Shown here: positions 9,687-40,351 of the stretch, piece after piece | Layout: each line of letters opens with the position of its first letter | Numbering within the stretch: position 1 is the first letter of the stretch | IMG/VR virus record: IMGVR_UViG_3300048833_000737 | Span: 1 to 41,702 of that record | DNA length: 41,702 nt | Source of the DNA: a virus | Strand: one strand, 5' to 3' | Program-made: the position numbers and the translations under genes | Notes under the pieces: generated by a model | Database searches by the model: none | What the model saw: only the letters and a program-made list of their open reading frames with translations | Told to the model about the DNA's origin: nothing

Positions 9687-10328
9687 TCAACTCCATAGGC
9701 GCCTGGCTAGGGCCAATTTTTTTTCCAGTTCATTCACTTCCTTCTTAGCGTAAGTTAAGCTATAAGAGTGGTCCCGTGAAATAGTACCATTTTTCAGTCC
9801 TTCATGCTTTGCTTTCGCTACTTCCAACTGGTACTCATACAACTCCACACTTTCAGGCATGCTCAGGTTGATGGTGTCCGCTTTGCTGGCCCAGTAGCTG
9901 GCCCGGCTGTTATACTCACCGGCTTTCTTCATAAACTGCACCGCTTTATCCATCCGGTTGTGGTTCCGTTCAATCAGTGCCCGGTGGCGCCGTTCACTGT
10001 GGTGGCCTATCTTAATAGGTTCAGCCAGGCGTAAAAAGTCAGCGCCTTCGTTGGAAGCCTGCCAGAATTTATCACTTTGTTTCTCAGCGGTCAGGCTGTA
10101 CCCCTGCAGACGTTCAGCTTTGCGCCGTGCCCATTCCTGGACGTTAAAGCCATCTGCACGTACTACGGAGTAGTAATAAAAGCCGTCACGCTCAAATATC
10201 AGGTTAAATATAATGCAGTCATGTTCCTGGCCGTACCTGGTAGTCATGGTAATGGTAGCGCCTTTCTCATGCTGCTGGTCGCACTTTGCTAAAAATACAT
10301 TAGGGCAATACTTTGAATAAGTGTTCAT
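9687..10328 (-). CDS. DUF3560 domain protein
   Basis: The start is ATG at 10328, 20 bases from the dyad promoter; the longer frame to 10385 would run through that promoter. The central PIKIGHHSERRHRALIER segment, then HNRMDKAVQFMKKAGEYNSR and a second alanine-rich helix, is the core of DUF3560. The C-terminus is a coiled coil (KKEVNELEKKLALARRLW). DUF3560 proteins occur on plasmids, conjugative elements and phages, often near antirestriction genes; no enzymatic activity is established to my knowledge. It has its own promoter, separate from the six-gene minus-strand operon behind it. Confidence 0.75.
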   Translation of the reverse strand: MNTYSKYCPNVFLAKCDQQHEKGATITMTTRYGQEHDCIIFNLIFERDGFYYYSVVRADGFNVQEWARRKAERLQGYSLTAEKQSDKFWQASNEGADFLRLAEPIKIGHHSERRHRALIERNHNRMDKAVQFMKKAGEYNSRASYWASKADTINLSMPESVELYEYQLEVAKAKHEGLKNGTISRDHSYSLTYAKKEVNELEKKLALARRLWS

Positions 10329-10347
10329 ATACCTGCGTTTTAATTTT

Positions 10348-10405
10348 GTTACAGCAAAGTAACGGAAACGGAATGATTCACGCAACTTTATTACAATGTT
10401 TTTTT
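10348..10405 (-). promoter_or_regulatory. Candidate promoter with dyad operator (copy 1)
   Basis: Read on the minus strand: seven As, then CATTGTAATAAAGTTG, then 19 bases, then the dyad GTTACTTTGCTGTAAC (10363-10348). The dyad contains TACTTTG, close to the Bacteroidota -7 element TAnnTTTG, with the TTG at the -33 distance. The arms GTTAC/GTAAC are perfect. The same layout with the same 19-base gap occurs before two other operons (12320 and 39108). It drives the DUF3560 gene, and its upstream part overlaps the end of the 10391-10672 gene. Confidence 0.6.
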
Positions 10406-11466: not shown

Positions 11467-11844
11467 TTAATTTTTATGGTTATGTAATTGAGTGCGGTCG
11501 TCAACTATCACATAGTAACCCAGGGATCTCCACCTGGCAATATGTTCATCAACCTTTGCAAAAAATGCCTGGCCACGGATACCGGTTTCATTCAACTTAG
11601 GTCCGATATTCTCACTAATCCAATGGGCAAAAAACTGCTGGCGCCCCAGCTGGTCCGGATGGCTTTCTATGGTAATGATCACCTTCCGGGTGGCCATGAT
11701 TGCTTTCATTTCATTTTTGATTATGGCATTGCAGTAAGTGAAGCGTGCCCGGTATTCAATCTGCTTTTTTTTCTGCACCGGTGCCTGGTCAAATATGGTG
11801 GCCAGTTTTCTGAGCCTGGCCTGCAGTATAGTGATTCGTTGCAT
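11467..11844 (-). CDS. Hypothetical protein (125 aa)
   Basis: The N-terminus is strongly basic and helical (ITILQARLRKLATIFDQAP, then KKKQIEYRARFTYCN). The second half (RKVIITIESHPDQLGRQQFF, GYYVIVDDRT) looks alpha/beta. The basic N-terminus suggests nucleic-acid contact, but no motif confirms it. The start codon is preceded by a strong hairpin (11859-11880) that is nearly identical to one before the gene at 40121, so translation may be regulated. Confidence 0.55.
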   Translation of the reverse strand: MQRITILQARLRKLATIFDQAPVQKKKQIEYRARFTYCNAIIKNEMKAIMATRKVIITIESHPDQLGRQQFFAHWISENIGPKLNETGIRGQAFFAKVDEHIARWRSLGYYVIVDDRTQLHNHKN

Positions 11845-11858
11845 GGTGGTAGTATTGC

Positions 11859-11880
11859 GGCCCAGGCGTCACCCTGGGCC
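11859..11880 (-). promoter_or_regulatory. Intercistronic RNA hairpin, loop GTGACG
   Basis: On the minus strand the arms GGCCCAGG and CCTGGGCC (8 perfect pairs) enclose the loop GTGACG. It lies between the 11888 stop and the 11844 start, 14 bases before the ATG. The hairpin at 40084-40105 has the same stem and the loop GTGACA, also 15 bases before an ATG. No T tract follows, so it is not a standard terminator. Hairpins with different stems but the same loop occur at 39171 and 39575. Confidence 0.6.
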
Positions 11881-12319: not shown

Positions 12320-12377
12320 GTTACAACAAAGTAACATTAGTGAGACCAAACAAACAAATATTTTGCAATCTTTTTTT
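12320..12377 (-). promoter_or_regulatory. Candidate promoter with dyad operator (copy 2)
   Basis: Read on the minus strand: seven As, GATTGCAAAATATTTG, then 19 bases, then the dyad GTTACTTTGTTGTAAC (12335-12320), followed by AAAATTAAAAACACC and the ATG at 12304. A second TTTG lies 17 bases before TACTTTG, giving a near-consensus Bacteroidota promoter. An extra AAAAAAGATTGCA stands upstream (about 12385-12398), so the upstream box is doubled here. It drives the six-gene minus-strand operon. Confidence 0.65.
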
Positions 12378-32174: not shown

Positions 32175-32707
32175 TGGCAACACTTGTCCAACTAAAAGAA
32201 AATATTGATACGGTCATTCGGCAGAAAACAACGCCGAACTCCATAACCCCAGGTATGGATGCTGATCTGCGTGATCAATCGGTCAATGAAATAGGTTTGA
32301 GGGGAATACTGGAAGTTGCTACCGTGGCAGGGCTGGCGGATTATAACAACCTGCATACTAATAAAATTCTGGTCCCTGGCTATGGGGTTTTTGTGTATGC
32401 CAATAGCGGGGTAGTAGATAATATTTCAATATTTCCGGCCAGTGGTTCAGGGGTATGGACCTTAAATCAATTCAAACCGCTAAAAGAAACGATTTCAGCC
32501 ACTGGCGTCACCAGTGTTACGGTTGCCTGGACGGATGCCAGAAAGGCAAAATTTGGCCTATTCCCATGCTTTCAGGTGTATCTGGAAGAAAGCGGCACCG
32601 GATGGAGGAAAATTATTGATGAATGGCTGGTGGATGATCTTGATAACCCCACTGAGTTTACAATTGAATTCGGTGGATCTGTTAATGTAAAAATTCTGAT
32701 TCTATGA
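32174..32707 (+). CDS. Fibre-associated protein (177 aa)
   Basis: An N-terminal helix (ATLVQLKENIDTVIRQKT) precedes repeated beta strands (ILVPGYGVFVYANSGVVDN, GVTSVTVAWTD, EFTIEFGGSVNVKILI). The helix-then-beta pattern is common in short tail fibres or fibre-connector proteins that trimerise. The stop overlaps the large fibre gene by 4 bases, so the two proteins are probably produced together. No enzymatic motif is visible. Confidence 0.5.
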   Translation: MATLVQLKENIDTVIRQKTTPNSITPGMDADLRDQSVNEIGLRGILEVATVAGLADYNNLHTNKILVPGYGVFVYANSGVVDNISIFPASGSGVWTLNQFKPLKETISATGVTSVTVAWTDARKAKFGLFPCFQVYLEESGTGWRKIIDEWLVDDLDNPTEFTIEFGGSVNVKILIL

Positions 32708-39067: not shown

Positions 39068-39096
39068 GTCCTGGGTTTCTACCTGGGACTTTTTTT
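39068..39096 (+). terminator. Rho-independent terminator of the late operon
   Basis: GTCCTGGG (39068-39075) and CCTGGGAC (39082-39089) form an eight-pair stem with two G-U pairs around the loop TTTCTA, followed by seven Ts. It lies 48 bases after the DUF4082 stop and should end plus-strand late transcription before the RadC operon. Confidence 0.7.
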
Positions 39097-39107
39097 GTAA
39101 AAACATT

Positions 39108-39165
39108 AAAAAAACATTGCAAAAAGTTTGCGTATATGGTTTTTAAATTGTTACTTTGTTGTAAC
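39108..39165 (+). promoter_or_regulatory. Candidate promoter with dyad operator (copy 3)
   Basis: Seven As, CATTGCAAAAAGTTTG, 19 bases and the dyad GTTACTTTGTTGTAAC (39150-39165) reproduce the layout seen on the minus strand at 10348 and 12320. TTTG and TACTTTG are at promoter spacing for Bacteroidota. It lies just after the late terminator and 48 bases before the ATG at 39214, so it drives the accessory operon with radC. Confidence 0.65.
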
Positions 39166-39170
39166 AAAAA

Positions 39171-39184
39171 CAGCGTGACGGCTG
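39171..39184 (+). promoter_or_regulatory. Leader hairpin, loop GTGACG
   Basis: CAGC and GCTG pair around the loop GTGACG in the leader between the promoter and the ATG at 39214, 29 bases before it. The sequence from here to the start codon is closely repeated at 39577-39621, before radC. Confidence 0.5.
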
Positions 39185-39213: not shown

Positions 39214-39597
39214 ATGGAAAAGTTGAGAGCAAAAGTAAGTGACATTAAAGCCCCTCTAATTGTTACTGATGCTGAAATCTTTGTGGATGAAAGAGTATTC
39301 TGGGCTACTATAAAACAATGGCAGGGTACTGACTACGAAAATGAAAATATAAAAGTACCATTCAAATATTTTTATGAATGTGTTACTGATATGGGCCTGA
39401 TGGATTACTGGTTTGACACTTATGAAAACTGGACAATGGACGAGTGGGTGGAGGAATACCGGAATAAGCAGCACTATTATACCCCACTGGTACAAAAGGT
39501 ACTAAGGTATGCATTGATACATGGCAAACTGATAGACGGCCCTGAATCGATTGAATTTGATTATTACAATAACCCCAGCGTGACGGCTGGTATCTAA
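39214..39597 (+). CDS. Hypothetical protein (127 aa), first gene of the RadC operon
   Basis: ATG 39214 is used because the earlier in-frame start (38971) would cross the terminator and promoter. The protein is acidic with many aromatic residues (ERVFWATIKQWQGTDYENEN, YWFDTYENWTMDEWVEEY). It has no membrane or metal motif. The acidic character could mimic DNA, as some anti-restriction proteins do, but this is only a suggestion. Its C-terminal PSVTAG codons form the hairpin that precedes radC. Confidence 0.55.
   Translation: MEKLRAKVSDIKAPLIVTDAEIFVDERVFWATIKQWQGTDYENENIKVPFKYFYECVTDMGLMDYWFDTYENWTMDEWVEEYRNKQHYYTPLVQKVLRYALIHGKLIDGPESIEFDYYNNPSVTAGI
39575..39590 (+). promoter_or_regulatory. 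Intercistronic hairpin before radC, loop GTGACG
   Basis: CCAGC and GCTGG pair around GTGACG, inside the last codons of the 39214 gene and 28 bases before the radC ATG at 39619. Loop and downstream sequence match the hairpin at 39171-39184. Confidence 0.5.
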
Positions 39598-39618: not shown

Positions 39619-40074
39619 ATGGAACAACTGAACCACCTGGTAAGTGAAATTTATGTAGGCTACAAAAGCGAAGTGAAGGCATCTGACCGCCCAACATTAA
39701 CTAGTTCTAAGGGAACGGCTGAGTTATTTCGATCTCTGTTTGATGATGATACCCTGGAATTCCAGGAGCAATTTTTGGTACTGTTTCTTAACCGGAACAA
39801 TTCTGTGGTGGGTTATTACCCAATGAGTAAAGGGGGCATGACCGGTGTAGTAGCTGACCCCAGGTTGATATTGGCAGCAGCGCTGAAGGTACCCTGCTGT
39901 GCAATGGTGCTGGCCCATAACCACCCCAGCGGAAGCCTGAAACCTTCCAGGGCTGATGAAGAAATCACCGGAAAAATCAAGCAGGCCGGCTTGCTTTTAG
40001 ATATCCGAGTGCTGGACCATATAATCCTCACCAGAGATGGCTATTTTAGTTTTGCTGATGAAGGAATCATTTAA
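39619..40074 (+). CDS. radC: RadC-like JAB/MPN-domain protein
   Basis: The JAMM metal site is complete: E50 in FQEQFLVL, HNHPSG (H100, H102) and D113 in LKPSRADEEIT. VLDHIILTRDGYFSFADEG is the standard RadC C-terminus. At 151 residues it is the short mobile-element form that lacks the N-terminal HhH region of chromosomal RadC. Despite the name, RadC is not firmly linked to DNA repair; short forms are common in phages and conjugative elements, often near anti-defence genes. It shares promoter and hairpin style with the DUF3560 cassette. Confidence 0.85.
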   Translation: MEQLNHLVSEIYVGYKSEVKASDRPTLTSSKGTAELFRSLFDDDTLEFQEQFLVLFLNRNNSVVGYYPMSKGGMTGVVADPRLILAAALKVPCCAMVLAHNHPSGSLKPSRADEEITGKIKQAGLLLDIRVLDHIILTRDGYFSFADEGII

Positions 40075-40083
40075 TTTTAACCA

Positions 40084-40105
40084 GGCCCAGGGTGACACCT
40101 GGGCC
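40084..40105 (+). promoter_or_regulatory. Intercistronic RNA hairpin, loop GTGACA
   Basis: GGCCCAGG and CCTGGGCC form 8 perfect pairs around GTGACA between the radC stop and the ATG at 40121, 15 bases before it. The minus-strand hairpin at 11859-11880 is identical apart from one loop base and is also just before a start codon. Confidence 0.6.
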
Positions 40106-40120
40106 ATAACACAATAAACC

Positions 40121-40351
40121 ATGCAAGATAAAGCGAACGATTTTCTGAGGCGTTGCCATGCCGGTAGCGGTAATTCTGGGGCTGTATCAATTACGCAAGC
40201 CCAGGAAGCTGTAAGATTAGCAAAGCAAGATTTTTATGATAACCTTGTTTATGAGTTGTGGAAGTTTCGAGAGGAAAGGAGCCTTTCAATTAAAAGCAGC
40301 TATGCCGCAATGACCAATTTGATGAAAGAACTTGAAAAATTGAAGCCATGA
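40121..40351 (+). CDS. Hypothetical protein (76 aa)
   Basis: A short, largely helical, basic protein with a Gly/Ser-rich segment (CHAGSGNSGAVSITQAQEAV) and a C-terminal coiled coil (SYAAMTNLMKELEKLK). No motif is recognised. It lies behind the GTGACA hairpin and overlaps the next gene by ATGA, so the two are coupled. Confidence 0.5.
   Translation: MQDKANDFLRRCHAGSGNSGAVSITQAQEAVRLAKQDFYDNLVYELWKFREERSLSIKSSYAAMTNLMKELEKLKP

Follow-up and report, generated by a model that had tools for sequence, protein, structure and literature searches.

Strong RNA hairpins between genes, 12-19 nt before an ATG and in numbers above shuffled expectation, recur in phages related to the virus IMGVR_UViG_3300048833_000737. 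This position and structure, not the loop GTGACR that four hairpins of this virus share, is the general feature of the phage group; the shared loop, though real, is a rare speciality. As to function, an evenly balanced judgement is that the hairpins are cis-acting elements at the cistron junctions of mRNAs, in phages probably starting translation without Shine-Dalgarno pairing.

The GTGACR hairpins of the window

The window, i.e. the whole stretch of DNA analysed (41.7 kb), carries genes for tail, portal, terminase, integrase and RadC. Gene starts were inferred with a simple ORF caller allowing ATG only, without annotation. Judged by the Bacteroidota consensus, the promoters of the window are of the Bacteroidota type, and a Bacteroidota host was deduced from this promoter style and from the relatives. 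The dyad promoter GTTACTTTGYTGTAAC is present in three copies (Table 1), all of which overlap the promoter -7 element and have a common ATTG-rich box upstream; the three dyads are probably operators for a single repressor.

Table 1. Hairpins, dyads and genes in the window.
Feature	Position	Strand	Remarks
Hairpin A1, CAGC[GTGACG]GCTG	39171..39184	+	4 bp; 29 nt before ATG 39214
Hairpin A2, CCAGC[GTGACG]GCTGG	39575..39590	+	5 bp; 28 nt before ATG 39619
Hairpin B1, GGCCCAGG[GTGACA]CCTGGGCC	40084..40105	+	8 bp; radC stop 9 nt upstream; ATG 40121 15 nt downstream
Hairpin B2, GGCCCAGG[GTGACG]CCTGGGCC	11859..11880	-	8 bp; upstream stop 7 nt away; 14 nt before ATG 11844
127-aa ORF	39214..39597	+	behind hairpin A1
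RadC-like JAB-domain protein (PF04002)	39619..40074	+	behind hairpin A2
76-aa ORF	40121..40351	+	behind hairpin B1
125-aa ORF	11467..11844	-	behind hairpin B2; 97% identical in sibling
Dyad GTTACTTTGTTGTAAC over Bacteroidota-like -7 element	39150..39165	+	heads A1-A2-B1 operon
Dyad promoter, same type as 39150	12320..12335	-	heads operon with B2
Dyad promoter, third copy	10348..10363	-	
Intrinsic terminator	39068..39096		separate from the hairpins
DUF3560 protein	9690..10385	-	

A first-pass annotation had reported four hairpins with the loop GTGACR, in sense orientation, 14-29 bases before an ATG, lacking a T tract and located in the regions of the dyad promoters. All four are present as described, none is followed by a T tract, and all lie in operons headed by GTTACTTTGYTGTAAC. 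The further claim, that one constant loop is combined with different stems, held in part. The stems do differ, and a third one occurs in a sibling phage (see below), but the four hairpins form two pairs of copies. The spacers of A1 and A2 are homologous (22/32 identical, z 4.8), one leader having been duplicated and being shared down to the ATG, and B1 and B2 are identical at 21/22 positions. The count of four is thus inflated, since the window has no more than two independent stems. The region 39575-39597 around A2 is also read as the final codons PSVTAGI of the upstream ORF and resembles a copied leader fused onto the gene end.

Predicted folding energies, compared with shuffled sequences, were strong for the 8-bp hairpins B1 and B2 (-19.4 and -19.0 kcal/mol; z -3.9 and -2.5) and moderate for A2 (z -1.3). 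The fold of A1, which is located in the 5' leader close to the predicted transcript 5' end, was weak and not below the shuffled controls (-6.2 kcal/mol, z +0.3). The raw hexamer GTGACR shows a mild excess in the window (41 vs 28 expected). As a hairpin loop it is above chance: in related phages, some 1,000 further hairpins with hexaloops included a single case (0/678; 1/350).

The sibling phage

In shared segments, the DNA of the sibling IMGVR_UViG_3300048588_000110 is 83-97% identical to the window. Hairpin B2 is kept exactly, and its spacer and the 125-aa gene are conserved alongside. The near-identical block of the alignment at this site comprises the stop codon and the hairpin through the downstream gene, whereas the upstream gene has diverged; here, the hairpin therefore travels with the downstream gene. 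No occurrence of the gene behind hairpin B was found beyond the window and its two siblings.

The sibling has an extra hairpin, ACCCTGCAGCGATC[GTGACG]GGTTGCTGCAGGGT (g1 32517-32550, minus strand; L035:12517-12550), with a 14-bp stem 13 nt before the ATG of a DNA methyltransferase gene. Its stem is unrelated to those of the window and is thus the third independent stem with GTGACR; together with two G-U pairs in this hairpin, this favours a function as RNA over one as DNA. The proposal that the structure acts as RNA and belongs to the start behind it is supported by these G-U pairs, by the change of stem under a constant loop and by the conservation at B2. The window region 1.3-3.0 kb holds methyltransferase genes other than the hairpin-bearing one of the sibling.

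Hairpins before start codons in related phages

The main set consisted of 74 non-redundant related contigs (1.38 Mb) with 394 same-strand intergenic gaps of 25-120 nt. In these gaps, 58 strong hairpins were found against 5.1 expected from dinucleotide shuffles, and the excess peaked 12-19 nt before the start (19 vs 0.9 expected). Held-out sequence of 661 kb, bringing the related phage sequence to about 2 Mb, contained 21 hairpins vs 2.6 expected, with 7 vs 0.2 at 12-19 nt before the ATG. The usual layout is a stop codon, 5-10 nt, the hairpin, 13-19 A/T-rich nt and the ATG, and it recurs on unrelated stems and loops. B1 and B2 fall inside the typical distance of 12-19 nt; A1 and A2 are outside. 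Streptococcus phages have non-terminator hairpins before starts too (3 at 12-19 nt vs 0.1 expected), hence this placement is not exclusive to the phage group studied. A 'mixed' control set was picked by hairpin pattern and is biased.

In the phage IMGVR_UViG_3300001918_000027 (L080:14792-16420), all four genes of one operon are preceded by a strong hairpin each, at 14-19 nt from the ATG. The successive loops are GTAAAA, TTCG, ATCAAA and TTCG, three different ones within a single operon. A relative of one of these genes on contig L115 (42% identity) also has a hairpin, at 14 nt, but its stem and loop are different. Stems and loops are interchangeable between phages and, in this one clear case, between orthologous genes. 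The DUF3560 orthologue has a hairpin when operon-internal, as in this phage, and none when under its own promoter, as in the window. The DUF3560 protein itself is kept in distant phages (Pasteurella, Porphyromonas, gut) at about 50-59% identity. In IMGVR_UViG_3300038549_000019, one contig has two copies of a hairpin segment, separated by about 35 kb (L106:9846-9865 and L108:5356-5375), besides other repeated hairpins.

A possible role at cistron junctions

The distance between hairpin and ATG fits the edge of the initiating ribosome as given by known footprints. The hairpin would thus be placed just outside the footprint of the initiating ribosome and adjoin that of a ribosome terminating on the previous gene. 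It could act as a structured divider, by which the downstream start would be freed from upstream termination, the mRNA between the cistrons would be protected, or both. Hexaloops of the type GTRAMR, possibly GNRA-like, may be preferred, GTGACR being the form in one lineage, where it may have spread partly via the copying of whole leaders.

Messages of Flavobacterium johnsoniae are without Shine-Dalgarno sequences and tend to lack pairing between -20 and +20 (PMC6847099). The start region was predicted to be equally accessible with native and with shuffled hairpins (0.64 vs 0.63, p=0.49), and its accessibility was only slightly different when the hairpin was deleted (0.61 vs 0.64 for native, p=0.02). 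A simple role as a folding insulator is therefore not clearly supported. In view of this negative comparison with shuffled hairpins we favour a junction element, either as a divider between termination and initiation or in mRNA protection; its main rival is a protein that binds the loop. Against the junction element stand the accessibility result itself, the occurrence of similar hairpins in Streptococcus phages, the location of A1 in a 5' leader and the distance of 28-29 nt between A1 or A2 and the ATG; it also leaves the identical GTGACR loop on three different stems unaccounted for.

A hairpin fixed in place and replaceable in sequence is a concrete candidate for the means by which Bacteroidota and their phages choose and tune starts within operons when Shine-Dalgarno pairing is lacking, and the constant loop on different stems offers a ready bait for a binding protein.

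Loop sequences and alternative explanations

The constancy of the loop over differing stems had been regarded as the hallmark of an RNA structure recognised by its loop. As a general hallmark this did not hold for the phage group, in which most start-proximal hairpins have other loops (TTCG, CTAATA, ATCAAA etc.) and both stem and loop are replaced at an unchanged position before an orthologous gene. A wider loop class, GTRAMR (GTGACR, GTAAAA, GTAACA), defined post hoc after inspection of the data, accounts for 7/139 start-proximal hairpins vs 1/1456 others (p=2.5e-7), and all start-proximal cases lie 13-17 nt before the ATG on different stems. The held-out sequence alone gave a non-significant 1/25 vs 2/350 (p=0.19), the single case being GTAAAA at 13 nt before the ATG. 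By its sequence, GURAMR could adopt a GNRA-like fold, which is a resemblance only. Pair counts from the aligned hairpins, the members of which were selected for pairing, are by themselves no proof of compensatory evolution. Stop codons in the loops (0.39 vs 0.28 in shuffled loops) were of borderline significance and were dropped.

A regulator binding the loop, as first suggested, is possible, the protein, a small RNA or a processing site all being putative. The main rival assumes that a phage or host RNA-binding protein reads a constant GNRA-like hexaloop, regulating translation or antitermination, with the stem merely presenting the loop, comparable to boxB/N or the coat-protein operator. We regard it as doubtful. 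The same loop on three unrelated stems in the lineage of the window, the enrichment and narrow placement of GTRAMR and the differing stems of the aligned hairpin set speak for such a protein, and GNRA-like hexaloops such as the phi21 boxB CUAACC are protein-bound (PMC12550061). However, GTRAMR was defined post hoc and lacks significance in the held-out sequence alone, most related hairpins have other loops, loops are mixed within one operon, and no candidate RNA-binding protein was found among the genes adjoining the hairpins, the small ORFs there being without informative family.

The searches bear on the same point, as the related phages and viral contigs searched yielded no GTGACR hairpin placed comparably to a start codon beyond this lineage, i.e. 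the window and its sibling. Genes related to those for RadC and the methyltransferase have none either, and no Rfam covariance model matched at the hairpins at or near the gathering score. A ten-hairpin covariance model run over 1.6 Mb recovered its own members, the sibling orthologue and two weak matches (E 2.8 and 4.2). Additional cases on other stems come from the sibling and, carrying a related loop, from other phages. The exact 20-mer of hairpin B had four matches in genome contigs, all non-Bacteroidota and fitting chance. For the 16-mer of hairpin A2, 69 matches were obtained in IMG/VR, three of them near an ATG and none with an A/T-rich spacer of like length; both candidate sets were rejected. 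The segment CCAGCGTGACGGCTGG and its flanks are conserved near an apparent gene 3' end in about a dozen viral contigs (L179, L180, L181, L183, L192, L202, L238 and others); it is probably coding and unrelated to the window. A literature search confined to open-licence papers found no description of these hairpins.

In a more specific version, which is rather unlikely, a GNRA-like hexaloop GURAMR, on stems of any sequence and 13-17 nt ahead of the start codon, would be read by a dedicated RNA-binding protein setting initiation without Shine-Dalgarno, the loop having diversified by lineage into GUGACR, GUAAAA and GUAACA.

Still less probable are sites of RNA processing or stabilisation, where the hairpins would either label the cistron junctions for nucleases or shield them from these, and each gene would obtain stable 3' and 5' ends. 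The tight placement between stop and start, the 14-bp stem in the sibling, the location of A1 near a predicted transcript 5' end and the stability of the majority of predicted folds agree with this, whereas the stems, of 4-14 bp, are very diverse in length and sequence and a common cleavage-site sequence is absent.

Least credible is that the loop is shared through leader duplication and that the hairpin is a module boundary in gene exchange, the loop having no regulatory role: although the A1/A2 spacers are homologous, B1 and B2 nearly identical, the near-identity of the two phages sets in at the hairpin and the third hairpin accompanies an exchanged methyltransferase gene, this third stem is unrelated in sequence yet carries the same loop, and the hairpin-to-ATG placement is constrained across phages.

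Comparison with known systems

Intrinsic terminators likewise consist of a G+C-rich hairpin after a stop codon, and the window contains a separate true one (Table 1); the four hairpins were rejected as terminators, having no T run and being placed just before the next ATG. The iron-responsive element shares the constant hexaloop on variable stems, and a G1-C5 cross-loop pair as in that element is conceivable in GUGACR. It was rejected, since it needs the loop CAGUGN, whereas here GTGACR precedes phage genes.

The boxA consensus is CGCTCTT, and inspection of the 40-nt upstream flanks by eye revealed no boxA-like sequence. Phage boxB, bound by the N protein in lambda, P22 and phi21, is likewise a short hairpin; its protein-bound loop, a penta- or hexaloop, has a GNRA-like fold (PMC12550061). 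In contrast to boxB, the hairpins of the window occur several per operon and are placed by start codons, and no N-like protein was identified among the neighbouring small ORFs.

Intercistronic stem-loops of bacterial and phage operons similarly lie between a stop codon and the next start, have no T tract and are variable in sequence. The hairpins described here differ from them in that most of them cluster at 12-19 nt from the ATG, in phages probably without Shine-Dalgarno-led starts, and in that different stems carry an identical loop within one lineage.
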